This document shows, piece after piece, positions 3,715 through 28,848 of a DNA stretch of 52,014 bases. This DNA is from Paludibacter sp. (GTDB lineage Bacteria > Bacteroidota > Bacteroidia > Bacteroidales > Paludibacteraceae): the NCBI GenBank assembly GCA_020049515.1, contig JAIFKQ010000011.1, positions 1 through 52,014 on the forward strand, given 5' to 3'. Below the pieces are notes generated by a model, which worked only from the letters and a program-made list of their open reading frames with translations, was not told the DNA's origin and did no database searches. The position numbers were made by a program, and so were the translations under genes. Position 1 is the first letter of the stretch; every line of letters starts with the position of its first letter.

Positions 3715-3942
3715 CTATTTGTACGTTTGCCTTTTTACAAATGATGTGCCACGGCCAAAATAAGCTATATATTCTATTATTTGACAAAAAAAGGCAGAAA
3801 GAAACCGACAAATCGGAAAAAATGGCTGACAAAAGGTCAGAAAACCTGTCAGATTTTGAATACTCATAAAAAATAGACGGTATTTAAAACTTGATTTTGT
3901 AACAATAATGTTGAATCTATCTCCTTTTTTACCAAAAAAGGC

Positions 3943-3951: not shown

Positions 3952-3967
3952 AACAAAAAAAAATGAA

Positions 3968-5355: not shown

Positions 5356-5419
5356 CCATAATAAAATAAGATAGTGAAGTGAAATTCGTTTACCAAGTGG
5401 ATTTCTAAATTGATAAATT

Positions 5420-5446
5420 AACTCGAGTCATCTCGAGTTTTTTTGT
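5420..5446 (+). terminator. Rho-independent terminator
   Basis: aactcgag-tcat-ctcgagtt followed by ttttt. Confidence 0.8.
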
Positions 5447-7259: not shown

Positions 7260-7316
7260 TGCATTTATATTTGGAATTTAGTATTATCAAATCACACATT
7301 TGTTTTTAATTTATTT

Positions 7317-10300
7317 ATGGAAAAAGAAATCATAAAAAACGAGATACTGCTGGCACTTATCTACGTAGCCGATATAAAAGCAGGCGAAGATGAAATACTG
7401 AAAAGTATTTTGCCTACCTATTTGCGAAAACTAAATTGTTTTTTGGCGGGTATTATCAAATCAAATAATGGTTTACTTACCGAAAAACTTGTTTTGCCAT
7501 TAATGTACTCCAAAAATCCTATGTGGCTAAAAATCAAAGATTACATTGCCAATAACAAAGCAATGATAGCCAAGGAGAATTACGCCGCATTGGTTTTCGA
7601 AAGTGAGATATTTTATATTTTCAGACTTTCGAAATATGGTTATTTTGTGTTGGGACGAAAGAAAATCTTCGACATCGTATTTGTAAATGATTTGAAACAC
7701 GTAATTAGCTTTACTGGAAAGGCATTGATGCAGTCTATTGAAGAAGAAATTAGAAAAGAATATGAACTTAAAATTGCTAATGAGCGAAAACTTTTAAGAA
7801 CAATAATAGATAATGTGCCCATCAGCATATATGCAAAAGATGCTGATTACCGAAAAACGATAGCCAATGCCACCGAGCTGCGCCAGTTTGGTTGTAAAAA
7901 TGAAAATGAAGTGCTGGGAAAAACTGATTTTGATCTTTTTGGACTAAGCATTGGTACTAATACACTTGTTGAAGACCAAAAGGTGATGCTGGAGGGAATA
8001 CCTATTTTGGACGAAGAAAAACACATCGGAAATGGCGAATGGGCATTGATTTCTAAACTACCACTAAGGGACGAAAAAAACAATATAATTGGTATTGTAG
8101 GTACTAGTTTTAATTTTACTGAAAGAAAAAAAACAACTGAACAGCTTGAGATTTTCAATAAATTATTTGATAATTTGTCGGATGCAGTTCAAATTTCATT
8201 GGAAAACGGGCAGCTATTTTACATCAATAAAATAGCGAGTGAAAGACTAGGTATTTTGCAGGAAAAGGTATCAGATTACTATATATTTGATATTGAGACT
8301 ATTTTCGAAAACGAAGAAGATTGGGTGAAGCATGTTGAGCATATTAAGAAAGTAAAATCGTTGACTATTGAAGGAGTTAATAAAAACCAAAAAACGGGTA
8401 AAAGTTTCCCTGTAGAGGTTTCGGTTAACTACATTGTGGTAAAAGAAAATGGCTATATTGTAGCTAATTCAAGAGACATTACAGAGCGAAAGAAAGCGGA
8501 CGAAGCACTTAAACATAGTAATGAGCGGCTAGAACAATTGGCATTACAATCTAAAACATTTGCTTGGGAAATAAATTCAGATGGATTATATACCTACATA
8601 AGCCCAATTATCGAATCTGTACTTGGCTACAAACCAGTCGATTTGATAAACAAAAAATATTTTTACGACATTTTTGCTCCCGAAAGCAAAGAAATTACAA
8701 CCAAAGAGGCTTTTCAAATTATTGAAAATAGAGTTTATTTTAACAATATTGAAAACAAAGTATTGGCCGCCGATGGCACAGAAGTGTGGTTGGCAAGCTA
8801 CGGATCGCCAATGTACGACAGTGTAGGCAATTACATTGGATTACGAGGTAGTGATAGGGATATTTCGGAACGAAAAAGGAACGAAGCACGCATTAAAGAA
8901 AACGAAGAATACCAACGTTTGCTTTTGGATAATTTATCGGTGGGTATTTTTATTATTGACCCTATTACCCGTATTATTGAAACTGTAAACACCTTTGCTA
9001 GTAATATTATTGGTGCACCTGCAGAAAGTATTGTTGGCCGCAGATGTCATTCTTTTGTGTGTAAAGCCATGGAAGACTGCTGCCCTATTTGCAATAGAAA
9101 TGAGATAGCTGACAACTCGGATAAAATTTTGTTAAATGCAAAAGGCGAAGAAATACCAGTACTAAAAACAGTAAAACAGATTACTATTGGTGGAAAAGTA
9201 AAACTGCTTGAAAGTTTTATAGAAATTACCGAAAGAAAACAAATAGAAGCCAAACTGCGCGAAAGTGATGAGCGAAAATCATCGCTAATAGCTAGTATGA
9301 ACGATATTGTGTTTGTTTTGGACAACGAATTTAGATTTGTAGAATACCACAATCCACTAAACACCGAATTATATGTTGACCCACAAACTGTAATTGGCCT
9401 CATATACAATGAAATAGGAATGCCCGAAGCGGTTTCCAACAAAATAGGAATTGCATTAAAAGAGTGCTCCGAAACTGGCAAAATGACCAAGGTAGAGTAT
9501 TACTTAGAGTTAAATGCCGAAATAAAATGGTACGAAATAAATGTGACTCTGCTCAATTTAGATACTAAAAACGGATTAACTTGCGTAGTACGTGACATAT
9601 CAGAAAGCAAAGCCCATCAAGAGTTTATTTATCAGCAAATAAGGCTGCAGGAATTGTTGATAAAAATTTCAACGACCTATATTAATATCGATTTAGAGAA
9701 TATAAGTTCAGTAATCCATCTATCTCTCAAAGAATTGGGCGAATTTGTGGGTGCCGACAGAACATACATTTTTGAATATGATTTTGGAAAAAATGTATGT
9801 AATAATACCTATGAATGGTGTGGAATAGATATCAACCCAGAAATTGACAATCTGCAAAATGTACCTTTAGAATATATCTCTTATTGGGTAGATGAACACA
9901 AAAAAGGAAATGCGTTTTATGTAAAAAACACAAACGAATTGCCAAACGATGGGCCAGATTCTCTTCGTGGAATAATAGAACCACAGGGCATTAAAAGCCT
10001 CATTACTATCCCTATGGTACACAATGAAGAACTGATGGGATTTGTTGGTTTCGACTCCGTGAAAACACATCATTTTTATACTACCAAAGAAAAACAACTG
10101 CTTGAAATTTATGCACAAATGCTTGTAAATGCTGAAATTAGAAAACGCGGACAGGCTATGCTCATAACACAGGAAGAGAAATACAGAAACATTATTTCTA
10201 ATATGCATCTTGGTTTTGTGGAAATGGATAACAACAATTGTATAACCTACATCAACAAACAATTCTGTGCAATGTCTGGTTATTCGGAGGATGAAATGAT

Positions 10301-12134
10301 AGGCAACAAAGCTTCAAAATTTCTACTTCCAGTAGATAGGGAAACGCTTTTAGACTACAAAAAAAATTTTGTAAACAAAAAACTAGCCCCTTCATTGGAA
10401 CTAAAACTCAACATAAAAAATGGCGAGGAGGTTTGGTGGCTTTTAAATGGTGCACCACAATACAATGATAAAAAAGAACTGATAGGTACTATAAGCGTAT
10501 TTTTTGACATTACACCGCAAAAGAAACTGCAAAGTGAATTGGAAGCCTCAAAGATGATAGCCGAAAGTGCTGCAAAAGCCAAAGAGCTGTTTTTGACCAA
10601 CATGAGCCACGAAATACGCACTCCGCTCAACGTAATTATAGGGATGATACGTGAATTGGGTAAGGAAAGTTTAACATCATCGCAGCAAACGTATGTGGCA
10701 CACTCGGAAGCATCGGCTTATCATTTATTGTCGATAATTAACAACGTGTTGGATATGTCCAAAATTGAAGCCGGCGAGTTTTCGTTAGACATCAATGATT
10801 TTAGCCTATCCACTACTTTGTGCAATTTGGAAAGTATCCTTTCGTCGCGCACTAAAAGTAAGAAAATTGACTTTCAAATTAATTTCTCCAAAAACATTGA
10901 ACGCGCCTTGGTAGGAGATGCGGTGAGACTGAGCCAGGTATTAATTAACTTATTGGGTAATTCAATAAAATTCACCAACGAAGGTCACGTTCATTTAAAC
11001 GTTGAACTTATTGATAGTAATAAATACTTTCAGAAATTGAAATTCGAAATTTCGGACTCAGGCATTGGGATGAGTGATGAATTTCAGAAAAATATTTTCA
11101 GCAAGTTCACTCAAGAATACAGTCTATCCAATCGTAACTACGAAGGTACTGGACTTGGGATGACCATTTCTAAGGAACTGATTGAACTAATGGGCGGTTT
11201 GATAAACCTGAAAAGCAAAAAAGGAGTGGGTACAAAAATCACTTTTGAACTTAATTTGCCTATTGGCGATGAAAATAAACTTATCAATTTAGACAAAAAA
11301 ACGCAAAACATTGATATTTCGGGTGTTACCATTCTACTGGTTGAAGACAATGAAATGAATCGTTTTATTGCGCGTCAAAGCTTAACGCAAGCACATTGCA
11401 TTGTTTCTGAGGCTGAAAACGGACTGGAAGCGTTGGAAAAACTGAAAACAAACAACTACGATATAATACTGATGGATATTCAAATGCCAAAAATGGACGG
11501 AGTAGAGGCCACCAAGATTATAAGAAACCAATTGGGGCTGAAAACTCCAATTATTGCGCTCACTGCCAATGCTTTTAAACACGACATAGATGTTTATCTA
11601 TCGATAGGAATGAACGATTTTTTGATAAAACCATACAAAGAAGAAGCGTTATATTCTAAAATAGATATTAGTTTGAGAGCGGGAAAAAATAAAAACAAGG
11701 AAGAAAACACTTCTATCACAAGCAAACAAACAACTCCTTCATTAACAATAAGTAATACAACCATGAAGAACGATATAATTGAACAACCAATGGTATCAGA
11801 AACAAAAGAAAAACTCTACAATTTGGACCAATTGAACGAAATAGGACGAGGCGATGAGCAGTTTTTGAAAATGATGTTGGAAATGTTTTGTAAATTGGCT
11901 AACCAAACCATAGAACAAATGCAAAGTGCATATCAAATAAAAGATGTGGCGGCTATACGGAAACTAGCACACAAAATAAAACCCAGTATAGACAGCTTAG
12001 GAATAACTTCGCTATTTGACACCATAAGAAAAATAGAATTGTACGACATTGAAATTAACAGCTTTGAAGATTTGAAACAGTTGATAAACGAAACCCGTGA
12101 AGTATTAACTGTTGTCCTTGATGATATTAAGTAA
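7317..12134 (+). CDS. Hybrid histidine kinase: multiple PAS, GAF, HisKA, HATPase_c, receiver, HPt
   Basis: 1605 aa; repeated PAS/PAC signatures ('ITERKKADEAL', 'DISERKRNEA'), H-box 'FLTNMSHEIRTPLNVIIGMI', 'GTGLGMTISKELIELMGG', receiver 'ILLVEDNEMNRFIA...IILMDIQMPKMDGVEATK', C-terminal HPt 'IRKLAHKIKPSIDSLG'. Confidence 0.97.
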   Translation: MEKEIIKNEILLALIYVADIKAGEDEILKSILPTYLRKLNCFLAGIIKSNNGLLTEKLVLPLMYSKNPMWLKIKDYIANNKAMIAKENYAALVFESEIFYIFRLSKYGYFVLGRKKIFDIVFVNDLKHVISFTGKALMQSIEEEIRKEYELKIANERKLLRTIIDNVPISIYAKDADYRKTIANATELRQFGCKNENEVLGKTDFDLFGLSIGTNTLVEDQKVMLEGIPILDEEKHIGNGEWALISKLPLRDEKNNIIGIVGTSFNFTERKKTTEQLEIFNKLFDNLSDAVQISLENGQLFYINKIASERLGILQEKVSDYYIFDIETIFENEEDWVKHVEHIKKVKSLTIEGVNKNQKTGKSFPVEVSVNYIVVKENGYIVANSRDITERKKADEALKHSNERLEQLALQSKTFAWEINSDGLYTYISPIIESVLGYKPVDLINKKYFYDIFAPESKEITTKEAFQIIENRVYFNNIENKVLAADGTEVWLASYGSPMYDSVGNYIGLRGSDRDISERKRNEARIKENEEYQRLLLDNLSVGIFIIDPITRIIETVNTFASNIIGAPAESIVGRRCHSFVCKAMEDCCPICNRNEIADNSDKILLNAKGEEIPVLKTVKQITIGGKVKLLESFIEITERKQIEAKLRESDERKSSLIASMNDIVFVLDNEFRFVEYHNPLNTELYVDPQTVIGLIYNEIGMPEAVSNKIGIALKECSETGKMTKVEYYLELNAEIKWYEINVTLLNLDTKNGLTCVVRDISESKAHQEFIYQQIRLQELLIKISTTYINIDLENISSVIHLSLKELGEFVGADRTYIFEYDFGKNVCNNTYEWCGIDINPEIDNLQNVPLEYISYWVDEHKKGNAFYVKNTNELPNDGPDSLRGIIEPQGIKSLITIPMVHNEELMGFVGFDSVKTHHFYTTKEKQLLEIYAQMLVNAEIRKRGQAMLITQEEKYRNIISNMHLGFVEMDNNNCITYINKQFCAMSGYSEDEMIGNKASKFLLPVDRETLLDYKKNFVNKKLAPSLELKLNIKNGEEVWWLLNGAPQYNDKKELIGTISVFFDITPQKKLQSELEASKMIAESAAKAKELFLTNMSHEIRTPLNVIIGMIRELGKESLTSSQQTYVAHSEASAYHLLSIINNVLDMSKIEAGEFSLDINDFSLSTTLCNLESILSSRTKSKKIDFQINFSKNIERALVGDAVRLSQVLINLLGNSIKFTNEGHVHLNVELIDSNKYFQKLKFEISDSGIGMSDEFQKNIFSKFTQEYSLSNRNYEGTGLGMTISKELIELMGGLINLKSKKGVGTKITFELNLPIGDENKLINLDKKTQNIDISGVTILLVEDNEMNRFIARQSLTQAHCIVSEAENGLEALEKLKTNNYDIILMDIQMPKMDGVEATKIIRNQLGLKTPIIALTANAFKHDIDVYLSIGMNDFLIKPYKEEALYSKIDISLRAGKNKNKEENTSITSKQTTPSLTISNTTMKNDIIEQPMVSETKEKLYNLDQLNEIGRGDEQFLKMMLEMFCKLANQTIEQMQSAYQIKDVAAIRKLAHKIKPSIDSLGITSLFDTIRKIELYDIEINSFEDLKQLINETREVLTVVLDDIK

Positions 12135-14087: not shown

Positions 14088-15197
14088 ATGACAAGTAATA
14101 ACACACCAACAATTTTAATTATTGATGACAATCCAATGAATTTACTGTTAGCTTCAAAAATACTTGAGAATAACAATTATAATTTTGCTACAGCCGAAAG
14201 CGGACTGGAAGGTATTGCACTAATAAAAGAGGAGATTCCATCCTTAATTCTTTTGGACATAAATATGCCCGATATGGATGGCTATGAGGTGTGTAGGAAA
14301 ATAAAGGAAATAGAGAAATGGAAAGAAATTCCAATTATATTTCTTACAGCTCAAATTCATACCGAAAATTTAGTAGAGGGATTTGAAGCAGGAGGCGTTG
14401 ATTATATAACAAAACCCTATAAAAGCGAGGAGCTATTGGTGAGAGTAAAAAATCATCTTGAACTTGCTGCATCTCGCCGAACAATTTTGGAAATGAACCG
14501 CTCCAGAGATAAGGTTTATTCTATTATTGCACACGATATTAGGTCGCCACTATCTGGTATTTTAATGACTTTGGATACCATCGACCAAGGATACTTAAAT
14601 CCTAGCAGTGAAGATTTTAAGGAAATTATCCATCAGCTAAAAATTAGAACTCAAGATACTAGCACCTTGCTGACTAGCTTATTAAACTGGACTCGTACAC
14701 AAGATGAAACCATAGTACTTCACCCCAAAGAAACAAACATTAATCAATTGATTAATAGCTGTATATTACTATTAGAGGCCATGGCAATGAGTAAAAATGT
14801 GGTACTATTGATGGAAATAACAGATAATATTGATAGCTGGTGCGACGAGGTTTCAATCAATACAGTTTTTAGAAACATTATTTCTAATGCTATAAAGTTT
14901 ACGCCAAGCAATGGAAGCATAAGCATCAAAGCTAAAGCATTGGAATCGAGCATAGAAGTAACAATTGCTGATACTGGAGTAGGAATGCCTGAAGATGCTA
15001 TTCGAAAGATATTTGAAGAAAATCAGCATTATACAAGCTCTGGCACCAACAACGAACAAGGTACAGGCCTGGGCTTAATGCTAGTGAAAGATTTTGTGAA
15101 AAAGAATAATGGAAGTTTGCAAGTTAGCAGCATACTAAATGAAGGTACCACATTTAAAGTAACCTTGCCAAAAACACAAAGTGTAAATGGAAACTGA
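14088..15197 (+). CDS. Response regulator-histidine kinase hybrid (REC-HisKA-HATPase)
   Basis: 'ILIIDDNPMNLLLASKIL...LILLDINMPDMDGYEVCRKIK', 'YSIIAHDIRSPLSGILMTL', 'GTGLGLMLVKDFVKKNNG'. Confidence 0.95.
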   Translation: MTSNNTPTILIIDDNPMNLLLASKILENNNYNFATAESGLEGIALIKEEIPSLILLDINMPDMDGYEVCRKIKEIEKWKEIPIIFLTAQIHTENLVEGFEAGGVDYITKPYKSEELLVRVKNHLELAASRRTILEMNRSRDKVYSIIAHDIRSPLSGILMTLDTIDQGYLNPSSEDFKEIIHQLKIRTQDTSTLLTSLLNWTRTQDETIVLHPKETNINQLINSCILLLEAMAMSKNVVLLMEITDNIDSWCDEVSINTVFRNIISNAIKFTPSNGSISIKAKALESSIEVTIADTGVGMPEDAIRKIFEENQHYTSSGTNNEQGTGLGLMLVKDFVKKNNGSLQVSSILNEGTTFKVTLPKTQSVNGN

Positions 15198-16560
15198 ACT
15201 TTTAAACATACTAATTATTGATGATGATATAGTTTATCGAAGATTATCATCTTCAATTTTGCAAGAACGATTCAACGTTTTTACGGCCGAAGCACCTTCA
15301 GTAGGGTTTAACATACTGAAAACAAAAAAAATTGATTATGTCATTTGTGATTACAGATTGCCAGAAATGGATGGATTGGAAGTATTGGAAAGAATAAAAA
15401 CAGACTATCCTCATATTGAGATGATTATGATTAGTGATTCGGGCGACATGAATACAGTAATTGAAGCATTGCGCCGAGGAGCAGTGGATTATTTCAAAAA
15501 ACCATTTACGCCTGCCGATGTATGGATGTCGATAGAAAGAACGCAAAAATATGCTCAATTAAACAAGAAATATAAAGTTGAAAAAAACAAGAATACAATT
15601 TTAAAAGATGCAGTAGATAAAGAGTTTGGAGTAGAAATAATAGGAAACTCGCCCGAAATATATGAAGTACTTACCCAAATGCGAATGGTGGCTCAAACTC
15701 CAGATACGTCTGTACTTATACTTGGCGAAAGTGGAACTGGTAAAGAGCTGGTAGCAAGAGGAATACACAACTTAAGTAATAGAAGCAATGAAATTTTTGG
15801 AGCCGTAAATATGTCGGCTATACCAGAAAACTTATTTGAGAGCGAATTTTTTGGGCATAAAAAAGGAAGTTTTACGGGTGCCATTGCCGATAAAGCTGGC
15901 TGGTTTGAAAACACAAACAAAGGCACTTTGTTTTTGGACGAAATTGGAGAAATGACACCCGCCATGCAAGTTAAATTATTGCGGGTTTTGGAAGACAGAA
16001 CTTTTACAAAAATTGGAACTCAAAGCCAACAAAAGTTTGATACCAGAATAGTGGCTGCAACCAATAAACCGATAGAAGATATATCCAATGGCATCAATTT
16101 TCGGGTAGATCTTTTCCATCGGGTAGGCACTTTTATTATTTATTTGCCACCATTGCGCGAACGGAAAAGTGATATTGTGCTGTTGGCAAATCATTTTTTA
16201 AAACAATTTGCTCACAAAATGAAAAAAAACATTGATGATATTCAAAAAAACTCCATGCAATTACTTAGTGACTATAACTTTCCGGGAAATATACGCGAGC
16301 TGAGAAACATAATGGAAAGAGCTGTAATACTTTGTAATGGAAATGAGCTATTACCATCACATTTTTTAATGATAAACAATAAAATTAATTCCAATAAACA
16401 AAATGATTTGAACAACTTCGATTTAGAAGAAATAGAGAAAAATACAATCATTAAGGCGTTGATTAAAACAAACAACAACAAAACGGAGGCTGCAAAATTG
16501 CTGAATATTGAATGGAATTCATTACACAGAAGAATTCAAAAATATGGAATAGAATTATAA
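15187..16560 (+). CDS. NtrC-family sigma54-dependent response regulator (REC-AAA+-Fis HTH)
   Basis: 'NILIIDDDIVYRRL', 'GESGTGKELVARGIH', 'FFGHKKGSFTGAIADKAGWFE', 'GTLFLDEIGEM', C-terminal 'NNNKTEAAKLLNIEWNSLHRRIQKYGI'. Confidence 0.97.
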   Translation: METELLNILIIDDDIVYRRLSSSILQERFNVFTAEAPSVGFNILKTKKIDYVICDYRLPEMDGLEVLERIKTDYPHIEMIMISDSGDMNTVIEALRRGAVDYFKKPFTPADVWMSIERTQKYAQLNKKYKVEKNKNTILKDAVDKEFGVEIIGNSPEIYEVLTQMRMVAQTPDTSVLILGESGTGKELVARGIHNLSNRSNEIFGAVNMSAIPENLFESEFFGHKKGSFTGAIADKAGWFENTNKGTLFLDEIGEMTPAMQVKLLRVLEDRTFTKIGTQSQQKFDTRIVAATNKPIEDISNGINFRVDLFHRVGTFIIYLPPLRERKSDIVLLANHFLKQFAHKMKKNIDDIQKNSMQLLSDYNFPGNIRELRNIMERAVILCNGNELLPSHFLMINNKINSNKQNDLNNFDLEEIEKNTIIKALIKTNNNKTEAAKLLNIEWNSLHRRIQKYGIEL

Positions 16561-16602: not shown

Positions 16603-16616
16603 ATTCGTTTTCGAAT
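16603..16616 (+). promoter_or_regulatory. Putative activator site (UAS copy 1), attcg-tttt-cgaat
   Basis: Perfect inverted repeat, 89 bp before a -24/-12-like motif; same TTCGTTTTCGAA core as the copy at 17243. Confidence 0.4.
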
Positions 16617-16691
16617 ATAACAATGAAAAAACGAAGAGAAAATGAAAAGCAAATTACAGGTATAGTTCAATATATCAAATTGATACATAAT

Positions 16692-16707
16692 TGGCATTCA
16701 AATTGAT
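16692..16707 (+). promoter_or_regulatory. Putative sigma54-like -24/-12 promoter copy 1 (TGGCAT-N5-TTGAT)
   Basis: TGGCATTCAAATTGAT, 38 bp before the ATG at 16745; shared with copy 2. Confidence 0.4.
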
Positions 16708-16744
16708 TAATGGTAATTATCCAAATCAATAAAAAATTACCATT

Positions 16745-17176
16745 ATGAAAACTAATTATATAAACTCCGCCATTGCTTTTGTATTTATCATTACATTAAC
16801 TTCTTGTTATAATGATAACAACGTAATAAGTGAACCATATACTTTTACATCAACTGTTGACAAAACTACAAAAGAGTATCAAGTATCAATTATGGCTTTA
16901 AATAACGAAAATCTGCCAATTAGTGGTGTTGAAGTAAAACTTTATACTCAAAACCCACTGAATGCGAATGGGACTTTAAAGGCTGACAATGAAAATTATT
17001 TGATTCATAAAGGAATAACTAATGAGGGTGGCGTTTTCAATTGCTCAATAGCCCCTCAAACCAATGTGGATAGTTTAACTATTTATGCTACTCAAACTGG
17101 TGTTTCATCTTTACTTACAGTACAACTAAAAGATACTGAAATTAACGTACAAATTTGCTGTTGTACGTCTAAATAA
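16745..17176 (+). CDS. Small lipoprotein, paralog of the N-terminal domain of the downstream LruC protein
   Basis: Lipobox 'FIITLTSC'; 'GVEVKLYTQNPLNANGTLKADNENYLIHKGITNEGGVFNCSIAPQTNVDSLTIYA' parallels 'GVLISIYTQNPLDETGTLKPNSANYLMFKGITDASGLLESKLAPATTVDSLMILI'. Confidence 0.75.
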   Translation: MKTNYINSAIAFVFIITLTSCYNDNNVISEPYTFTSTVDKTTKEYQVSIMALNNENLPISGVEVKLYTQNPLNANGTLKADNENYLIHKGITNEGGVFNCSIAPQTNVDSLTIYATQTGVSSLLTVQLKDTEINVQICCCTSK

Positions 17177-17242
17177 TTTAGAATTTCTCAGTAGATATAA
17201 CAATGATGAATGTACTATATTGATGATTGCATATTTAAAAAA

Positions 17243-17256
17243 CTTCGTTTTCGAAG
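17243..17256 (+). promoter_or_regulatory. Putative activator site (UAS copy 2), cttcg-tttt-cgaag
   Basis: Perfect inverted repeat, 91 bp before TGGCAC at 17334. Confidence 0.4.
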
Positions 17257-17333
17257 AGTAACCCTCAAAAGTGAGACATTGAAAGCATGAAAATATACAA
17301 TTATATACCTGTATATCAAATAATTAAACAAAG

Positions 17334-17349
17334 TGGCACACAAATTGAT
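17334..17349 (+). promoter_or_regulatory. Putative sigma54-like -24/-12 promoter copy 2 (TGGCAC-N5-TTGAT)
   Basis: TGGCACACAAATTGAT upstream of ATG at 17398. Confidence 0.4.
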
Positions 17350-17397
17350 TATCCATTGAAAATAAACTTCTGAAAAAACATTCAAAAATTAAATATT

Positions 17398-19444
17398 ATG
17401 AAAACATTCAAAATTAAATTGCTAGTTATCACTGCTACTTTAGCATTTATTTTTACTTCTTGTTTAAATGAAAAAATAAATGAATTAAACATTTCAAATA
17501 CAGCTGCATTTGAGTTTAAAACCATCAAAGATGTAAATGTATCCATTACCACTTTGACAAATGATGACAAACCATTAGGTGGTGTTTTAATTTCAATTTA
17601 CACACAAAATCCATTAGACGAAACTGGCACCTTGAAACCAAACAGTGCTAACTACTTAATGTTTAAAGGAATTACAGATGCATCAGGCTTACTCGAAAGC
17701 AAATTGGCTCCTGCAACCACGGTTGATAGCTTAATGATTTTGATAAATCAGATAGGACTACCTAACTACCATGCTATTAAGCTCGAAAGCAACAATGTAC
17801 AACTAGTTGTAGGCGGAAAAGGTGCAAGCAATGTAAGAAGCAAGGTATCGGCAAGCACGTATGTAACAATTCCACCCACTGCATGGACTACAAACAATGA
17901 TTTTTTGGTACTTGGAACATGGACGGGAGCTGGAGTACCAAACTACTTAACAACAAAAGACATCATTGCAAGTGATTTCTTATCAGATGTAAATGCTTCT
18001 CTTCCAGAGCGTATTGGATTACCTGCTTCACACCCCGAATACTTTGACACACAAGATGATGGCAGCTTAGTACTGGAAAAAGATGCCGAAGTATGGGTAA
18101 CATTTGTTCATGAAGGAGCTGGGTATAAAAACTCGCTAGCATATTATACACACCCTAATGGTACTGCTCCAGCTTCAAAATCAGATATTAAAGATCAAAC
18201 AATTATCTTTCCAAACGTTTCATTTTTAAACTCGGGAGGTGGTTTAAGCACAGGTAATAAGGTTCAATTATTCTACTACAACCAAAACACCAAATTATAC
18301 ACCGACATTTTTCCTGCAGGTACAACCGTTTGTTGGATAATTAGATCAAATGCCTGGACTGGAACTACAGTGGGGGCAGGCTTCAATTCATTCTACTCTG
18401 ATGCCAGATTTAATCCAGAAAGTACAGAAGCAGCAAGAAAACACAACGTAGTATTGAAAGATGTAGGTCGCCAATTGTTCTTATTGGGTTTTGAGGATTT
18501 ACATAGAGATAATGGATCTGACAATGACTTTAACGATGCCGTATTTTATGCCACAGTATCGCCCTACACAGCAGTAAAAAGCATAATATACAAATCAATT
18601 GACTCGGTAAAAGATAGAGATAATGATGGAGTGCCCGATGCAGGAGATGATTATCCTGACGATGCAGCTAAAGCATTTAACAACTATTATCCTGCAATAA
18701 ATCAAAATGGTACGCTTGCTTTTGAAGACTTATGGCCAGGAAAAGGTGATTATGATTTTAATGATGTGGTGGTAGATTATAATTTCAATCAGATTACAAA
18801 TGCTCAAAATAAAACGACTGCAATTGATGCCAAATTAACACTAAGAGCTAGTGGAGCAAATAACAGCAATGGTTTTGCAATAGAGTTTAACACAAATCCA
18901 GACAATGTACTGTCTGCTACTGGTCAGAACCTTACTGAAAATATTATTAATCAGAACACCAATGGAACAGAAAAAGGGCAAGCCAATGCAGTTATATTTG
19001 CTTTCGACAACGCATTTAGTTTACTTAAACGGAACCAAGGATCTGGAAGTGTTAACACCGTTGCAGCCGAAAATTATGTTAACCCAGCAGTATTAAATTT
19101 AAAAATCACTTGCTCCATTTAATCCATTCATAATTATTAATACCGATAGAGGCCGTGAAGTTCATTTACCTGGAAGTGCTCCTACTACATTGGCCAACGT
19201 AAATTTATTTGGCACAGCAAATGATGATTCGAATCTTAACACAGGTAAGTATTATATGTCAGACAAATACCTGCCTTGGGCAATCAATATTCCTATTCAA
19301 TTTGATTATCCAGCCGAAAAACAAGACATCACTCAGGCATATTTAAATTTCAACAAATGGGTAGCCAGCAGAGGTTTCAATAATATGGATTGGTACAAAT
19401 CGAATAATGGATACAGAGATAATGACAAAATATATAGTAAATAA
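17398..19444 (+). pseudogene. LruC-domain surface lipoprotein, frameshifted near 19108-19114
   Basis: ORF 17398-19122 with lipobox 'LAFIFTSC', 'DLHRDNGSDNDFNDAVFYA', 'DNDGVPDAGDDYPDDAAKAFNNYYP...GTLAFEDLWPGKGDYDFNDVVVDY'; continuation in another frame APFNPFIIINTDRGREVHLPGSAPTTLANVNLFGTANDDSNLNTGKYYMSDKYLPWAINIP... Confidence 0.85.
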
Positions 19445-20020: not shown

Positions 20021-20392
20021 ATGAAAAAGAAAATTTTAATTCTCGATGACAAAAGCGAGTTTCGCAGATTGACTAAATCTATTTTATCAAGTAAATACGA
20101 TGTAGAAAGTGCGGAAAATGGAATTGAAGGGCTTTCTATACTTCAAAATGGATATATGCCCGATTTAATTGTTACTGACTTAATGATGCCTGAACTAGGC
20201 GGAAAAGGTTTTGTAGAGCAAATAAAAAGTAGTGGAGCATTTAAAGATATTCCTGTAATTATTTTGTCGAGCATTGATAAAAGCGACGAAAAAATACAAT
20301 TAATTAATCTTGGTGCAAGTGACTACCTAGAAAAACCATACAATCCTGCCGAATTATTGGCTAGAATTGAAAACTTGCTCAAAAATAGATAG
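20021..20392 (+). CDS. Single-domain response regulator
   Basis: 'KILILDDKSEFRRL...PDLIVTDLMMPELGGKGFVEQIK...ILSSIDKSD...EKPYNPAELLARIENLL'. Confidence 0.93.
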   Translation: MKKKILILDDKSEFRRLTKSILSSKYDVESAENGIEGLSILQNGYMPDLIVTDLMMPELGGKGFVEQIKSSGAFKDIPVIILSSIDKSDEKIQLINLGASDYLEKPYNPAELLARIENLLKNR

Positions 20393-20481: not shown

Positions 20482-21594
20482 ATGAATTACAAAGGAATAT
20501 ATATTGGGAGCAATAAGTCTTTGGTTGACAAATTGACTAAAGAAAGTGATTTGATTAGTTTTTCTATGAGCAATCATTTAATGGATGCTGTAAAATCAAT
20601 GGACTCTATTGATTTGATTATTTACGAAGAAACTGAAATAACGAATGATTTGATTTTGATAAAAAATCTCAAGGAAAATCTTTCTAATAATAAGGTTGTA
20701 TTATTCGTAATAAATGAGAACTCGTATTCACCCGATTACATCAAAATTGGGGCACATGATGTTTTTCATTTTGATTCACACCCCAATGACATTGTAAAGC
20801 GATTCGAATTTATTTTTAAAAACTACGAAACTTTAAGTGGAAGAAAAACTGAAGTTCTTCAAACGTTTAAACTTCCAGTTTGGAAACGTACATTCGACAT
20901 CTTATTCTCTGGTGGATTACTTTTATTTTTGTTACCAATTTTCATAGTCATTGCTATACTAATACGATTAGAATCTAAAGGGAAAGTTTACTATGCTTCG
21001 CCTCGGGTTGGAACTGGATACAATGTATTTGGGTTTCTCAAATTCCGCAGCATGTACACCGATGCAGATAAAAAAGTGGACAGTATGATGAAAAATAATC
21101 AATACGCCAACGATGATTCTCATAGAGAGTTTGATGATTTGCATGAGAGTGGTCCGGTATTGATTGACGACGAAGGTTTTGTAAGGGAAGGTAAAATTAA
21201 AAAACAAAAAGCTATCAAAAGAGAAAATGCATTCTTTAAAATGGCCAATGATCCACGTATCACCAAAGTGGGCAGATTGTTAAGAAACACCAGTATTGAT
21301 GAATTGCCTCAACTTATAAATGTACTGAAGGGCGATATGTCGATAGTGGGCAACAGGCCTTTACCACTTTACGAAGCAGAATTAATTACTACCGATCAAT
21401 GGGCGAAACGATTTTTGGCACCCGCCGGAATGACTGGGCTTTGGCAAGTTACCAAACGTGGGGGTTCAAACGTTATGTCGGCCGACGACAGAAAACAGCT
21501 TGATATTGAATACGCTGAAAATTTCTCATTCTGGTACGACATGAAAATTCTGCTTAAAACAATTCCTGCCATGCTTCAACATGAAAATGTGTAA
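20482..21594 (+). CDS. Exopolysaccharide initiating sugar transferase with degenerate receiver-like N-terminus
   Basis: 'WKRTFDILFSGGLLLFLLPIFIVIAILIRLESKGKVYYASPRVGTGYNVFGFLKFRSMYTDAD', 'LRNTSIDELPQLINVLKGDMSIVGNRPLP', 'PAGMTGLWQV'. Confidence 0.95.
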   Translation: MNYKGIYIGSNKSLVDKLTKESDLISFSMSNHLMDAVKSMDSIDLIIYEETEITNDLILIKNLKENLSNNKVVLFVINENSYSPDYIKIGAHDVFHFDSHPNDIVKRFEFIFKNYETLSGRKTEVLQTFKLPVWKRTFDILFSGGLLLFLLPIFIVIAILIRLESKGKVYYASPRVGTGYNVFGFLKFRSMYTDADKKVDSMMKNNQYANDDSHREFDDLHESGPVLIDDEGFVREGKIKKQKAIKRENAFFKMANDPRITKVGRLLRNTSIDELPQLINVLKGDMSIVGNRPLPLYEAELITTDQWAKRFLAPAGMTGLWQVTKRGGSNVMSADDRKQLDIEYAENFSFWYDMKILLKTIPAMLQHENV

Positions 21595-21597
21595 TCG

Positions 21598-22353
21598 ATG
21601 AACCGCATCCTTTTTTTTATTATTCTTGGTTATTTTTACCCGTTAGGTCTTTTTGCTCAAAATGAGGTAAATAGTGATTCTACTACTAATCTGATGGCTT
21701 ACAATAAGTTTGTGATTCCAGTACTAGAGGACTGTATACAATTTGCTATGAATAATTCTCCACTACTTAAAGCCAACGATCAGCAAATTGAGGTATTGCT
21801 TGAAGAGATAAAAATAAAGAAAAAAGCATGGTTAGATTTTATACAGATTGAAGCAAATACCCGCTACGGTTTATTCAATCAGGTTTCTTTGACCCAATCA
21901 AGTGAAGTTTCAGCATCCGAAGTAGCATTACAATCAGCAAAAGAACAGTTTAATTATTTTGCAGGCTTAACGGTTAAGTTACCTTTGTCATATTTTGTTG
22001 CGAATAAAAGCGAACAAAAAATTATTAAGCTCAACATTCGTGAAATGGAGCTAAAAAAAGAAGATCTGAAAAAAGAAATTACCAGATTGGTTATTATTGA
22101 GTACTTTAAATTGAAAAACTTCAGTGAAATGCTAGAAGCCCAACAAAACAATTTACAAACTGCTCAAATCGATTATCTTAAAGGACGAAATGATGTAAAA
22201 TCTGGAATGATAGGAATGACTGAATATGCTGCCATTTCCAACGCTTATACTAAATCAATGGATGCATATATTTCAACAAAAAACAGTTATTATACTGAGT
22301 ATTATTTACTTAAAATGCTTACTGGGACAAATCTTCAAAAAGATAAAAAATGA
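21598..22353 (+). CDS. TolC/outer membrane efflux-like protein (short)
   Basis: Signal peptide; coiled-coil pattern 'LEDCIQFAMNNSPLLKANDQQIEVLLEEIKIKKKAWLDFIQIEANTRYGLF'. Confidence 0.7.
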   Translation: MNRILFFIILGYFYPLGLFAQNEVNSDSTTNLMAYNKFVIPVLEDCIQFAMNNSPLLKANDQQIEVLLEEIKIKKKAWLDFIQIEANTRYGLFNQVSLTQSSEVSASEVALQSAKEQFNYFAGLTVKLPLSYFVANKSEQKIIKLNIREMELKKEDLKKEITRLVIIEYFKLKNFSEMLEAQQNNLQTAQIDYLKGRNDVKSGMIGMTEYAAISNAYTKSMDAYISTKNSYYTEYYLLKMLTGTNLQKDKK

Positions 22354-24533
22354 ATATCATTAAGTTTTTAAAAATCATATCTAATAAACTCTTGTATGTT
22401 TTATTAATTCCAACTGTGGCATCAACTATAGTGTTTTTTTTAACCAAGGATTTGCCCGTTAAATATACTACATTTTCTACTATTTACTCTGGAGTAACAT
22501 CAAATAGTGGTTTGGCTGTAGAAGCTTTGAGGGTTGACAATGTTGCAACTCAAAATGAGTATAACAACTTGATGACAATTCTCAAATCGAATTCATTGTT
22601 TGAAGATGTTTCACTTCATTTACTTACTCAGCACCTTTTACTTACAAAACCCGAAAAAGAAATTATTTCAATAAAAGCATACAATGAGTTTATAAATTCT
22701 GTACCTGATGAAGTAAAAAAACTTGTTGTAAAAGGCAATTTTGAGAAAACCTACAGCAATTTAAAAAAGTACATTAAAGAGGATGAAAATAATTACATTT
22801 ATCGGTTGATGAATTTTGGAAACAAGTATTATAGTAAGCAGGCAATTTCAAATGTAAAGGGAGAGAGATTAACAAATAGCGACTTGATAAAAATTAGCTA
22901 TGAGTCGGAAGATGCGGGTATCTGTTATAATACAGTAAAATTTACAACGGAACTTTTTGTAAAGCGATACAGCACATTAAAAGTTAGTCAGTCAAATTCT
23001 ACGGTGGCTTATTTTGAAAATCAATTAAAAGAAGCAGCTTTAAAATTAAATGGAGCGGAACAAAAATTACTTGATTTCAACATTGACAACGATATAATAA
23101 ACTACTACGAACAAACAGAGCAAGTTACCACACAACAAGAAAAAATTGAGGTTAAACTGCAAGAAGTCAAAATGGAGTACGAAGCCGCTCAAGCTGTACT
23201 CATTAAATTGGAGCGTGAAATAGAAACTCGCTATAAAATTAACATTAGAAACACAGAAGTATTACGAATCCGAGAAAAGTTAGTAGATTACAACAATGCC
23301 ATTACAGCAATTGAAATTGATGAAAATTCGACAAATGCAAAACAGTTATTGGACTTAAAGAGCAAACGTAATGAGGTATTAGAGAAATTAGAGAACAAGG
23401 TAGATTCAATTTACATTTACGAAAACAAGAGTCAAGGCATTGAATCTCAGAGGTTATTATCAGAATGGCTGGATGCCGTAAAAACGCAAGAGAATTACAA
23501 TGCGCTTTTTAAATCAATGAAGGATAGGCAGATTGAATTCATGAAGCAATTTAAACGCTATGCCCCATTAGGTGCTACCATAAAACGCATTGAGCGAGAA
23601 ATTCACGTTTTTGAAAGGGAGTATTTAAGCATTTTGCAAGATTTGGGTATGGCGCGTCAGAATCAACAAAACATGGATATGCGTTCTGACATGAAAGTAT
23701 TTGATGACACCCAATTTCCAATAAATGCCATAGCCTCAAAAAAGAATTTGTATGTGACAGTAGCAGCCATGTTTTCTTTGATTTTTTTCCTTCTAGCAGT
23801 ATTTATTATTGAATTGATGGATAAAAGAATTAAAACACCGTCGTTATTGCATCAACTTACTGGGCTGAATGTGGTAGGTGCATTTTGCAAAGAGAACAAA
23901 AAGAAGTTCATAAACACAGAGATGATTGAGCAGCGAGCTGCATTAATGATTTTTGAAAAAATGCGCCAACTTGGTTCGGAGTCACCCCGCCCTTTTGTAG
24001 TACAAATTTTCAGCAGTTGGGACAATGCTGGTAAGTTATTTATTGCCAAATATTTAAGTGCCGAAATTGAACGTCATAATTTTACAGTTAAGGTGCTAAA
24101 TTTTGAACCTGAAATTAGTATCGATGGAGTAATAGCAAAATCGTTGGACAATGAAGGTGTTACCGACTTAGAAGCAATGAATTTACAAGATAAAATCAAT
24201 CAATTTGATACTTATATCGAATTATTTAATGCCGAAAATATAGTTTCTGATTTTGTAATTAGTGTGCTATCACCAGTAAGTAATGGCATAGACAACCCAG
24301 TACTTATTGCCAATGTAAAAGCAAATTTTATAGTGTATGATGCCAGTGCATTGTGGTCAGAGGCTGATAATTTTATATTGGATAAACTTAAAAATGCCGT
24401 GCCAAATGGATTGTTTGCTATTCTAACGAAAGCTGAACCTGATAATTTGGAGGAAATTTACGGCGAAATTCCGAAAAAAAGGTCATTTATCAGAAAACTG
24501 TTAAAAAAACTATTGAAACGAGTGATTAAATAG
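22350..24533 (+). CDS. Polysaccharide co-polymerase (Wzz/GumC-like) with degenerate BY-kinase domain
   Basis: N- and C-proximal TM segments around a long coiled coil; C-terminal 'VQIFSSWDNAGKLFIAKYLSAEIERHNFTVKVLNFE' at the Walker A position; overlaps the upstream gene by 4 nt. Confidence 0.85.
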   Translation: MNIIKFLKIISNKLLYVLLIPTVASTIVFFLTKDLPVKYTTFSTIYSGVTSNSGLAVEALRVDNVATQNEYNNLMTILKSNSLFEDVSLHLLTQHLLLTKPEKEIISIKAYNEFINSVPDEVKKLVVKGNFEKTYSNLKKYIKEDENNYIYRLMNFGNKYYSKQAISNVKGERLTNSDLIKISYESEDAGICYNTVKFTTELFVKRYSTLKVSQSNSTVAYFENQLKEAALKLNGAEQKLLDFNIDNDIINYYEQTEQVTTQQEKIEVKLQEVKMEYEAAQAVLIKLEREIETRYKINIRNTEVLRIREKLVDYNNAITAIEIDENSTNAKQLLDLKSKRNEVLEKLENKVDSIYIYENKSQGIESQRLLSEWLDAVKTQENYNALFKSMKDRQIEFMKQFKRYAPLGATIKRIEREIHVFEREYLSILQDLGMARQNQQNMDMRSDMKVFDDTQFPINAIASKKNLYVTVAAMFSLIFFLLAVFIIELMDKRIKTPSLLHQLTGLNVVGAFCKENKKKFINTEMIEQRAALMIFEKMRQLGSESPRPFVVQIFSSWDNAGKLFIAKYLSAEIERHNFTVKVLNFEPEISIDGVIAKSLDNEGVTDLEAMNLQDKINQFDTYIELFNAENIVSDFVISVLSPVSNGIDNPVLIANVKANFIVYDASALWSEADNFILDKLKNAVPNGLFAILTKAEPDNLEEIYGEIPKKRSFIRKLLKKLLKRVIK

Positions 24534-24560
24534 CTAAAAAAATCATACACATTTTTTAAA

Positions 24561-26066
24561 ATGAGCACAAATCCTTCGTACGATAATCATAGAATAAAAC
24601 ATGCCGTAATGGTGATTACTGTAAGTTCATTCTTTATTTTACTGTTACTAGGGACGATGTATTTTTTTTCAAAAGACAATTTGATTTTCGGCATCGTTTT
24701 ATTAGTACTACCTATTCCAATTCTATATTTATATGTTTTTTTTGCCAATCCACGAATCGGGTTTTATTCGGTTTTAGTGGCTAATTATTTTGCTATTGGT
24801 TTGTCAAGATATATTCCTGCACCACTTGGCTTATCACTCGATGGGCTTTTGGTACTAACTTGGTTAGCAGTTATTTTTAGCCAGTTTAACAAAAAAATTA
24901 TTTGGAAAAATGCTGGAAGAGACTTTACTTACTTTGTTATCGTATGGTATGCAATGACATTTTTGCAACTGTTTAATCCTGAGGCAGTAAGTAGAGAGGC
25001 TTGGTTTTATGTTATGAGAGGTCAAGGTTTGTATGTTTTTCTGACAGTGCCCTTGGTTTACTTGATATTTAACAAGCCAAAAGATTTAGATATTTTAATA
25101 CAAACATGTGCTTGGTTTACGCTTATTGCAGTAGCCAAAGGCATTGGACAAAAGTACATGGGGGTTGACAAATGGGAACAAACTTGGCTCAACGTACCGG
25201 GCAACAGAAGTACTCATATTTTATTTGGTCAATTAAGGGTTTTTTCAATTTTTTCCGATGCAGGAACTTTTGGTAGTTCAATGGGATATTTTGGTGTAAT
25301 GTTCATTGTTTTAGGTATTCACGAAATAAAAAGTTTTTTTTATAAGTATTTCTATTTCTTCATTGGATTTGGGTCAATATTTGCCATGTTAATTTCCGGC
25401 ACTAGAAGTGCAATTGCTGTGCCATTGGTCGGTTTTGTAGTATATACAATTTTAACAAAAAAGATTAAAATCATAATTACTGTTGGAAGTATCATTTTTT
25501 TAGTGTTTTTCATTCTAAAATACACTAATATAGGACAAGGGAACTATGATATAAGGCGCATGAGAAGTGCTTTTGGGGAGGAAAACGCATCCCTAGATGT
25601 GCGCACGCAGAACAGAAAGATATTTGCAGATTATCTAAAAAACCGTCCATTTGGCGGAGGCGTAGGCTCATCGGGAAACTGGGGTTTGCGTTTTAGCCCT
25701 GGCACTGTTCTAGCTGAGACAGCCACTGATGGATTTTATATACAGATATGGGCCGAGCAAGGTATTGTTGGTTTGACATTTTACTTGATAATGATTTTTT
25801 ACTTTGCGCTGAAATCTACGTTTTTAATTTTTTTTAGACTAAAAAAACCAGAATATATTTACAAAGCAATACCGTTTACTTGCGGCATGTATGGCCTTAT
25901 GGTTTCATCATATAGTGCATCTAGTCTAGGACAATTGCCCAACATTATTATTGTATTTACAAGTATGGCATTAATATCACTTATGCCAGAATGGGAAAAA
26001 GAAGAAGAGGAAAAAGAGAAATTATTGAAAGAAAATGAACAAATATCCATAGAAAAACAAAACTAA
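24561..26066 (+). CDS. O-antigen ligase/polymerase (Wzy-like) membrane protein
   Basis: Multiple TM segments, 'FAMLISGTRSAIAVPLVGFVVY', 'FADYLKNRPFGGGVGSSGNW'. Confidence 0.85.
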   Translation: MSTNPSYDNHRIKHAVMVITVSSFFILLLLGTMYFFSKDNLIFGIVLLVLPIPILYLYVFFANPRIGFYSVLVANYFAIGLSRYIPAPLGLSLDGLLVLTWLAVIFSQFNKKIIWKNAGRDFTYFVIVWYAMTFLQLFNPEAVSREAWFYVMRGQGLYVFLTVPLVYLIFNKPKDLDILIQTCAWFTLIAVAKGIGQKYMGVDKWEQTWLNVPGNRSTHILFGQLRVFSIFSDAGTFGSSMGYFGVMFIVLGIHEIKSFFYKYFYFFIGFGSIFAMLISGTRSAIAVPLVGFVVYTILTKKIKIIITVGSIIFLVFFILKYTNIGQGNYDIRRMRSAFGEENASLDVRTQNRKIFADYLKNRPFGGGVGSSGNWGLRFSPGTVLAETATDGFYIQIWAEQGIVGLTFYLIMIFYFALKSTFLIFFRLKKPEYIYKAIPFTCGMYGLMVSSYSASSLGQLPNIIIVFTSMALISLMPEWEKEEEEKEKLLKENEQISIEKQN

Positions 26067-26079
26067 AAATCTAAAAAGT

Positions 26080-27132
26080 ATGAACAATCGGCTCGAAAAA
26101 CTAGAAGCACTACGTGGATTTGCAGCACTTTATGTTGTTTTTTTTCATGTTCTACCCCAAAAATTTTATTTATTTGGTATCAATCTTGGATTCTTTTTTC
26201 GTTTTGGTCCCGAAGCAGTGATTGTATTTTTTGTACTATCAGGTTTTGTAATCAAATTTACCTACGAAAAGTCTAAAAACAAAACCTTCAATTATTATTT
26301 CATCCGACGGTTTATACGACTTTATGTGCCCTTGATTTTTATTTTTATTTTAGGGTATGTAATAAAAAGTTATTCGGAGGGTGGGTTTGCTAATCCTGAG
26401 TGGAAAAGCTTGTTTGGCAACTTACTTATGCTTCAGGATGTAATTTCGCAAAAACCTAACGTATTGGTTCCTGCTTATTTAGGTAATGGAGTATTATGGT
26501 CATTATCTTACGAATGGTGGTTTTACATGTTGTTCTTTTTCCTTATTACCAAAATTAAAAGCGATAAGCTTAACATGTATGTCAATATTCTTGTTATTGT
26601 AGCCGCCATTAGTTATGTGTTTTATCCATTCATTGTCAACAGATTAGCCATGTATTTTGCAATATGGTGGATTGGAGTAATATTTGCAGACACTTATTTG
26701 AAAAAAGAGAAATTTGATTTTTCGTTAATCATGCCCTACGCTTATGTTCTATTGACCATTACAATAATTCTGGCCATTAATTTGTATATTAATTTCAAGT
26801 TTACAAAAATCTATACCTATCCGCTTGTAGCCTATCCGTTTATCGAACTTCGTCATTTTGTTTTTGCACTGATGGTAATGTTTGGGTCTATTATTTGGAA
26901 AAAACTTAATTGGTTTGGGTTCAATTTCTTCTTCGATAAATTCAAATACATCGCTTCATTTTCTTATGTGATATACATTTCGCATCATTATTTAGTTATT
27001 GAAGCTACCTACCTGAAATTTTTGAATAATAAAGTATTGGAATATGGACTTTATATTGTTGTTATGCTTCTGTTTTCATATCTTTTGGAAGTAGTTGTTT
27101 ACAATAAAATCAAAAAACTAATTCTAGCCTAG
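26080..27132 (+). CDS. Acyltransferase family 3 (OafA/YrhL-like)
   Basis: 'RLEKLEALRGFAALYVVFFHV', 'PEAVIVFFVLSGFVI', 'YFIRRFIRLYVPL', 'NGVLWSLSYEWWFYMLFF'. Confidence 0.93.
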   Translation: MNNRLEKLEALRGFAALYVVFFHVLPQKFYLFGINLGFFFRFGPEAVIVFFVLSGFVIKFTYEKSKNKTFNYYFIRRFIRLYVPLIFIFILGYVIKSYSEGGFANPEWKSLFGNLLMLQDVISQKPNVLVPAYLGNGVLWSLSYEWWFYMLFFFLITKIKSDKLNMYVNILVIVAAISYVFYPFIVNRLAMYFAIWWIGVIFADTYLKKEKFDFSLIMPYAYVLLTITIILAINLYINFKFTKIYTYPLVAYPFIELRHFVFALMVMFGSIIWKKLNWFGFNFFFDKFKYIASFSYVIYISHHYLVIEATYLKFLNNKVLEYGLYIVVMLLFSYLLEVVVYNKIKKLILA

Positions 27133-27396
27133 CAACCCATGTGTCATCTTATTGCAGAACGATTTAAATAACTCTCAAAAACAGAGTCTTTGTCTCATAG
27201 TATAACATAGTTAATATCAAGTCTTTAATGTACATATTTCGAATACTTTTTAGGCGGCTATTTCTTTATTGTATATGGTTTCACACAAAAACTATTCAAG
27301 TTTATAATACGCATCCAAGTCCATTGTAATAAAAAAAAATAAAAAATTGACATAAAAAACTTTTTTTTACTACATGTGGATAAATATAAAATCAAT

Positions 27397-27404
27397 ATAT
27401 TTGC
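27397..27404 (+). promoter_or_regulatory. Bacteroidota -7 promoter element upstream of the UDP-glucose dehydrogenase gene
   Basis: 'tatatttg' (TAnnTTTG), with ttgaca upstream at about 27346. Confidence 0.4.
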
Positions 27405-27519
27405 CACCGTATTCAAGAGATAATGAAATTACAATGAATAACAATATAAAGTTTCAACTACAATCAACAAAGAAATTCAATATTCAATATAACATACAAC
27501 CATTTAAAATTTAATCATT

Positions 27520-28848
27520 ATGAACATTTCAATTGTTGGCACCGGATATGTAGGACTCGTTTCTGGCGCTTGTTTAGCAGAAACTGGAGCAGTAGTTAAC
27601 TGTATCGACACCAATCAAAGTAAAATAGACAGTCTTAACAATGGTGTAATGCCAATTTATGAACCAGGACTTGAAGACCTTGTAAAGAGAAACGTACAAA
27701 AAGAAAGACTTTTCTTCAAAACAAAACTTGCGGAAGTTGTAAACGAAAGTGACGCAATTTTTATAGCAGTAGGTACACCGCCAGATGAAGATGGAAGTGC
27801 CGACCTTAAATATGTGTTGGCTGTAGCCCGCGAAATTGGTTCTAATCTTGACAATTATACAGTAGTTGTAACTAAAAGTACGGTGCCAGTAGGAACAGCA
27901 GTAAAAGTTAAAGCTGCTATACAGGGTGAGCTTGACAAAAGAGGCGTGAAGGTTGAATTTGATGTGGCTTCAAATCCAGAGTTTTTGAAAGAAGGAAATG
28001 CTGTGGACGATTTCTTGAAACCAGATCGTATTGTGATTGGAGTAGAATCGGAAACAGCTGAAAAAGTGCTTAAAAGGCTTTATAAACCTTTTGTTTTGAA
28101 TAACCACCCTATTATTGTAATGGATATTACGTCATCCGAAATGACTAAATATGTTGCAAATGCAATGCTTGCTACTAAAATTAGTTTTATCAACGAAGTT
28201 GCAAATCTGTGCGAAATTGTTGGTGCAGACATTAATTTGGTGCGCAAAGGAATTGGTTCAGACACCCGTATTGGCTACAAATTTCTTTACCCTGGAGTTG
28301 GTTATGGTGGTTCTTGTTTTCCAAAAGATGTGCAAGCATTGATTAAAACTGCAAAAAACTACAACTATTCTTTGAATATTTTACAAGCTGTAGAAGATGC
28401 AAATGATTTCCAAAAAACAGTTTTATTTAACAAAATATACACCCATTTTGAAGGAAATTTGAAAGGAAAAACCATAGCTATTTGGGGTCTTTCATTCAAA
28501 CCTGAAACGGATGATATGCGCGAAGCTCCATCTTTGGTGTTAATAAATAGCTTGTTGGAAAATGGCGTAACAGTTAATGCTTACGACCCGATTGCTATGC
28601 ATGAAACAAAAAGAATTTTGGGCGACAAAATTAAGTATTGTAAGGATATGTATGAAACGTTAATAGGGGCAGATGCTTTGGCCGTAGTTACCGAATGGAG
28701 TGAGTTCAGACTTCCAAACTTTAAAGTGATGGATAAACTGATGAACGACAAGGTGATATTTGATGGTCGTAACATTTTTGATATGGACCAATTGGAAGAT
28801 TTCAATTTCCATTATTATAGTATTGGTAAAAAACCGATTAATTTCTAA
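27520..28848 (+). CDS. ugd: UDP-glucose 6-dehydrogenase
   Basis: 'MNISIVGTGYVGLVSGACLAETGAVVNCIDTNQSKI', 'SNPEFLKEGNAVDDFLKPDRIVIG', 'YPGVGYGGSCFPKDVQAL', 'WGLSFKPETDDMREAPS'. Confidence 0.97.
   Translation: MNISIVGTGYVGLVSGACLAETGAVVNCIDTNQSKIDSLNNGVMPIYEPGLEDLVKRNVQKERLFFKTKLAEVVNESDAIFIAVGTPPDEDGSADLKYVLAVAREIGSNLDNYTVVVTKSTVPVGTAVKVKAAIQGELDKRGVKVEFDVASNPEFLKEGNAVDDFLKPDRIVIGVESETAEKVLKRLYKPFVLNNHPIIVMDITSSEMTKYVANAMLATKISFINEVANLCEIVGADINLVRKGIGSDTRIGYKFLYPGVGYGGSCFPKDVQALIKTAKNYNYSLNILQAVEDANDFQKTVLFNKIYTHFEGNLKGKTIAIWGLSFKPETDDMREAPSLVLINSLLENGVTVNAYDPIAMHETKRILGDKIKYCKDMYETLIGADALAVVTEWSEFRLPNFKVMDKLMNDKVIFDGRNIFDMDQLEDFNFHYYSIGKKPINF

Follow-up and report, generated by a model that had tools for sequence, protein, structure and literature searches.

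A predicted sigma-54 control unit upstream of exopolysaccharide-linked surface lipoprotein genes in Paludibacter sp. and other Bacteroidales

The analysed stretch of DNA (hereafter the window) corresponds to 52,014 nucleotides of contig JAIFKQ010000011.1 from Paludibacter sp. (assembly GCA_020049515.1), and its relevant features are listed in Table 1. At the centre of the locus, a receiver-histidine kinase gene lies 5' of, and overlaps, the gene of an NtrC-type response regulator, which is followed by two lipoprotein genes (genes 1 and 2). This regulator-lipoprotein locus heads an exopolysaccharide cluster coding for a sugar transferase, an outer-membrane channel, a protein of the O-antigen-ligase/Wzy type, an acyltransferase, a UDP-sugar dehydrogenase and a large membrane protein, the latter without a Pfam match and called Wzc-like only from its position. 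Two proteins of the right-handed beta-helix type, each with a C-terminal T9SS sorting domain, are encoded at 12183-13841 and 40992-42716, beside or inside the exopolysaccharide region.

Table 1. Features of the window, with their position, strand and the basis of each assignment.
Feature	Position	Strand	Basis or remark
Sigma-54-like site upstream of dnaK: TGGCACATCATTTGTA	3736..3751	-	Comparison promoter
Multi-PAS/GAF hybrid histidine kinase with receiver and Hpt, proposed sensor	7317..12134	+	Pfam
Receiver-histidine kinase, proposed phosphorelay partner	14088..15197	+	Pfam Response_reg, HisKA, HATPase_c
NtrC-type response regulator, proposed activator	15187..16560	+	Pfam PF00072, PF00158, PF25601, PF02954
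UAS copy 1, gene 1: TTCGTTTTCGAA	16604..16615	+	Conserved in 24 promoters
UAS copy 2 (weaker), gene 1: TGAAAAAACGAA	16624..16635	+	5/8 positions; offset-20 signal
Predicted -24/-12 promoter, gene 1: TGGCATTCAAATTGAT	16692..16707	+	Sequence match
Gene 1, short lipoprotein, 143 aa, lipobox LTSC	16745..17176	+	Paralog of the LruC protein's N-terminal domain
UAS copy 1, gene 2: TTCGTTTTCGAA	17244..17255	+	Sequence match
UAS copy 2 (weaker), gene 2: CTCAAAAGTGAG	17264..17275	+	4/8 positions
Predicted -24/-12 promoter, gene 2: TGGCACACAAATTGAT	17334..17349	+	Sequence match
Gene 2, LruC-domain lipoprotein (DUF4114 + DUF4842 / TIGR04456), lipobox FTSC	17398..19122	+	Frame ends early
Out-of-frame remainder of the LruC protein	19190..19444	+	Comparison with relatives
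Stand-alone receiver-domain protein	20021..20392	+	Pfam; conserved in the locus
Exopolysaccharide genes	20482..28848	+	Pfam; gene order conserved

The presence of an NtrC-type regulator with GESGTGKE and GSFTGA motifs immediately upstream of the lipoprotein genes, as proposed in the initial annotation, was borne out by its Pfam domains. The protein consists, in this order, of a receiver, an AAA+ (Sigma54_activat) and a Fis-type HTH domain, and thus has the composition that defines the NtrC family (receiver, AAA+ with a GAFTGA-type loop, Fis-type HTH), while scoring below the NCBIfam equivalog cut-offs for NtrC, AtoC, ZraR and others. Orthologs with at least 70% identity were found in 10 other same-genus genomes, and the recognition-helix region (WN-L-RR) is invariant across the alignment.

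As for the lipoproteins, the short one aligns with the N-terminal domain of the LruC protein at 39% over 129 aa. At least two stand-alone short copies of this LruC-type domain occur under the element described below (window 16745-17176; L197 8175-8576). The LruC frame reaches 116.8 bits on TIGR04456, for a cut-off of 36, despite being truncated, apparently by a frameshift near 19115; the gene is intact, at ca. 690-700 aa, in nearly all of the relatives compared, and the frameshift is apparently either an assembly error in the MAG or the mark of a recent pseudogene.

In the same-genus relatives, those with a name being Bacteroidales MAGs, the 5' part of the locus holds one or more hybrid kinases, placed as in the window, a T9SS-type beta-helix protein (in some), the receiver-kinase and the regulator, in the same order as here, and one to three LruC genes; the stand-alone receiver, the sugar transferase, the outer-membrane channel, the large membrane protein and the Wzy-type protein then follow. 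The same locus was found in a Marinilabiliaceae MAG (L205), with a regulator of 60% identity.

Both lipoprotein genes of the window are preceded by TTCGTTTTCGAA and then by TGGCAY-N5-TTGAT, the gap from the end of this 12-bp core to TGG being 76 bp for gene 1 and 78 bp for gene 2. The core belongs to 14-bp inverted repeats, attcgttttcgaat at 16603-16616 and cttcgttttcgaag at 17243-17256. The repeats and promoter motifs reported in the initial annotation are all where it had placed them, and its distances of 89 bp (gene 1) and 91 bp (gene 2) are correct when counted from the 14-mers. A weaker further copy of the site starts 20 bp after each first copy. The pattern TTCGN4CGAA-N60-100-TGGN8TTG, observed twice in the window, was absent from all 150 of its shuffled versions (dinucleotide composition preserved, both strands searched). 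At the level of the whole genome (2.8 Mb, 83% complete), these two site-promoter pairs are the only ones, and at this completeness the regulon may exceed two genes. From the usual sigma-54 geometry, transcription is predicted to start near 16718 for gene 1 and 17360 for gene 2.

The search was extended to 48 same-genus genomes and to other Bacteroidales, where the arrangement recurs. Far from being random or absent at orthologous loci, it keeps its gap of 76-78 bp before orthologs as well as before non-homologous lipoprotein genes, and it precedes LruC-type lipoprotein genes and unrelated lipoprotein or secreted-protein genes. In one locus (L191), three tandem genes each carry an element of their own and code for lipoproteins of 259-300 aa, an unrelated family that matches nothing in Pfam or NCBIfam. 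Elsewhere, the element stands before a 774-aa LruC-domain lipoprotein gene (L194), before the gene of a 133-aa lipoprotein that is a distant relative of the N-terminal domain found in larger LruC-type proteins (L196 and L197), and before a solo LruC gene away from any regulator (L035). Two further cases come from other families: in G080 (L296), which has a 65%-identical regulator, the element lies at 78 bp before a DUF4402-type secreted-protein gene, and in G190 (L297), it precedes the gene of a 165-aa secreted protein. In L296, at 3291-9395, the regulator has as neighbours DUF4402 proteins and a secreted protein of 855 aa, and the contig ends within the DUF4402-type gene that carries the element. 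The centre of the core reads AAAA instead of TTTT in three promoters, with the site position kept; the occurrence of both orientations fits a symmetric dimer site. The first LruC gene of G028:C55, 13 bp 3' of the regulator, has no element of its own.

A looser pattern applied to the genus gave many chance matches, in which the gap differed or the core was not TTTT/AAAA-like; matches were retained when they combined a gap of 76-78 bp with a core rich in T/A. Four order-wide matches were dropped, two (G276 and G200) having other spacings and lying in or beside coding DNA, and two (G173 and G280) on spacing alone. As a negative control, a pattern with one extra base between TGG and TTG matched neither window promoter; its most repeated match is, from our reading of the letters, the rpsI coding start on the other strand. 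Other Bacteroidota LruC genes (L211, L216, L217, L222 and L233) have TGGCAY/TGGTAT-N5-TTGA/TTGT near their start and lack TTCGN4CGAA; other sigma-54 activators may control these genes.

Concerning the spacing, the 18 same-genus promoters found with the strict pattern have gaps of 76 bp (nine promoters), 77 bp (seven) and 78 bp (two), and the promoters found otherwise (G024_b, G028_lipC, G011_lipD, G080 and G190) also fall within 76-78 bp. Since any gap of 70-84 bp in one search, and of 62-84 bp in another, would have been accepted, this narrow range was not imposed by the pattern, although matches with other gaps were set aside as chance. The divergent LruC gene of L205 has a 67-bp gap, i.e. 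ten bases or one helical turn shorter. Over 24 promoters, a further TTCGN4CGAA is best found at an offset of +20 (z 4.7), with a shoulder at +21 (z 2.1), and G024_b and G190 carry two near-perfect copies of the site. Two putative dimer sites two helical turns apart would suit an activator of the NtrC type.

The genome encodes RpoN (PF04552, 176 bits; RpoN box ARRTIAKYRE). The 18 aligned promoters read TGG-N8-TTG, with CA and Y after GG in most of them and the C at -12 not kept; GG and TTG are invariant, both being required by the search pattern, which did not require the pair position, the extra CA or the following T. Of 92 TGGCAYN5TTG sites examined in the genome, 72 fall within genes, and none of the 20 sites outside genes, including those before lon and dnaK, has a C after TTG. 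The dnaK gene provided a comparison at the order level: across 295 Bacteroidales genomes, 44 sites were found upstream of it, the base after TTG being A in 22, T in 16, C in four and G in two. It seems reasonable to consider the dnaK site as a putative sigma-54 promoter; GroES and GrpE have been reported to be sigma-54-dependent in Bacteroidota (PMC12316311). Because A or T mostly follows TTG in these dnaK promoters, TTGAT is ordinary in Bacteroidales: the caveat of the initial annotation on this element is thereby resolved, and TTGAT was rejected as an argument against sigma-54. Sigma-54 scans demanding TTGC at -12 would miss most Bacteroidales sites. In the window, the dnaK-like region (1763-3714, minus strand) is split into two overlapping frames, 3112-3714 and 1763-3136, which suggests a further frameshift.

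The repeat is palindromic, tandem and co-occurring with the regulator. An ortholog of the latter is present in 11 of the 48 same-genus genomes, and the element, defined by the 76-78 bp gap and the T/A core, in nine of these 11 vs. at most one of the 37 others (Fisher p 3e-7), genome counts being related by descent and not phylogenetically independent, and much of the signal being linkage, as targets linked to the regulator co-occur with it trivially. When only targets away from the regulator are counted, the figures are 5/11 vs. 0-1/37 (p 0.0003-0.001). LruC-type orthologs in the regulator-less G033 and G030 have neither element, whereas that of G028 has both. Two exceptions were found: G001 carries the regulator together with a TGGCATGGGAATTGAT promoter but lacks a recognisable site where one would be expected, and in G190, where the element is present, the best regulator match is only 41% identical. 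In G190, either another activator binds or the site is due to chance.

Could the similarity upstream of the two genes be a relic of their tandem duplication, devoid of regulatory meaning? Genes 1 and 2 are indeed paralogs, and their spacers resemble each other slightly more than shuffled sequences do (0.68 vs. 0.61). However, the core is reversed in some promoters with its position kept, and the same elements and spacing stand before orthologs and non-homologous genes with spacers no more alike than random, the identity being 0.60 vs. 0.58 for shuffled sequences in the same family and 0.58 vs. 0.57 in different ones. As the spacers are as unlike as shuffled DNA and yet fixed in length, this length does not reflect inherited similarity, and the simple inheritance raised as a caveat in the initial annotation appears very improbable. 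We give just as little credence to the repeat being the site of a regulator foreign to sigma-54, or a structural signal, next to an incidental TGGCAY-N5-TTG. The -12 element without its textbook C would agree with such a coincidence, but the two elements stay 76-78 bp apart across unconserved DNA, GG and TTG never vary among the 18 promoters (albeit prescribed by the pattern), and TTGA/TTGT is the usual -12 form of the dnaK promoters of the order. Nor would the repeat be an RNA hairpin, since its position is 5' of the predicted transcription start.

A genuine sigma-54 unit whose repeat is bound by an NtrC-type protein other than the adjacent one is somewhat less far-fetched, though still unlikely. 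G190 carries the element without a close ortholog of the regulator, several such regulators exist per Bacteroidales genome, and the binding of the repeat by the adjacent regulator is something that we infer; on the other side, element and ortholog co-occur across the 48 genomes, the adjacency of the regulator is conserved, and its recognition region is near-invariant in repeat-bearing genomes, those of other families included.

The reading that we favour, and hold to be highly probable on these comparative grounds, is that the tandem sites are bound by the adjacent NtrC-type regulator, which thereby activates sigma-54-dependent transcription of genes for surface proteins that go with an exopolysaccharide locus. 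The enhancer and sigma-54 promoter first proposed for these surface lipoproteins are well supported by the comparative evidence. In the proposed circuit, the multi-sensor hybrid kinase and the neighbouring receiver-kinase would phosphorylate the regulator, which would then bind two sites separated by two helical turns (20-21 bp), the 14-bp inverted repeats being the presumed stronger halves of these tandem sites, and oligomerise. The bound regulator would loop over the fixed-length spacer, and its AAA+ ATPase, through the GSFTGA loop, would open the sigma-54 polymerase at TGGCAY-N5-TTGW. With its own copy of the control unit, each lipoprotein gene could be switched on jointly with the other, probably while the adjacent exopolysaccharide locus is in use, joint expression with its genes being predicted. 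The lipoproteins may then supply proteins of the outer surface or matrix, a putative matrix or adhesion role being suggested by lipoboxes or signal peptides together with the exopolysaccharide linkage.

A broader interpretation is that of an undescribed sigma-54 regulon extending over the Bacteroidales. A single NtrC-type regulator family, moving together with exopolysaccharide loci, would have recruited unrelated surface-protein families through a movable cassette of rigid geometry (tandem TTCGN4CGAA, 76-78 bp, TGGCAY-N5-TTGW) set before each gene, with helical-phase-locked activation and loss of the -12 C; the case for and against it seems to us evenly balanced. The open-access papers searched yielded no prior account of this regulon. 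To our knowledge, few sigma-54 activators of Bacteroidales have assigned sites, and a set of predictions is gained here, i.e. the activator, site, promoter and targets, for exopolysaccharide-tied surface lipoproteins in this order.

Among known systems, the putative circuit shares with NtrC/AtoC-type enhancer-binding proteins the domain order, the tandem dimer sites upstream and the action at a distance on sigma-54 polymerase, whereas the distance between site and promoter is unusually constant here. Within the same phylum, a report on the Flavobacterium psychrophilum sigma-54 regulon (motif SM4) describes -24/-12 promoters, defined by TSS mapping, before exported and gliding-motility proteins; the passages considered neither assign activators and their sites nor present an LruC/exopolysaccharide circuit (PMC9723704). 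The closest known parallel is the PrsK/PrsR PEP-CTERM system of Proteobacteria, which involves sigma-54 (Haft et al. 2006, PMC1569441) and in which pepA is RpoN-dependent (PMC9850573). In both cases, an NtrC-type response regulator and a histidine kinase are found beside exopolysaccharide genes, and several single genes coding for exported proteins have a sigma-54 promoter preceded, at a defined distance, by an upstream motif that is sometimes repeated. The differences concern the site (ending in TTTACA vs. TTCGN4CGAA here), the spacer (62.8 +/- 10.6 vs. 76-78 bp), the cargo (PEP-CTERM proteins vs. mostly lipoproteins, LruC and others), the kinases, which are here of the hybrid or receiver-kinase types, and the host group (Proteobacteria vs. 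Bacteroidales). Assignment to the PEP-CTERM system itself was rejected, the regulator scoring 334.8 bits on TIGR02915 for a cut-off of 502.6, and the targets, mostly lipoproteins, gave no PEP-CTERM match. Small exosortase-family matches occur elsewhere in the genomes, e.g. a small protein at G000:C25:9861-10229 (PF09721, 36 bits), with no link found to the target genes. As a whole, these results suggest that the proteobacterial PrsK/PrsR/PEP-CTERM circuit, a sigma-54 co-regulation of exopolysaccharide-associated surface proteins, has a separate counterpart in Bacteroidota, here in Bacteroidales, in which the site, the regulator and the cargo are different.
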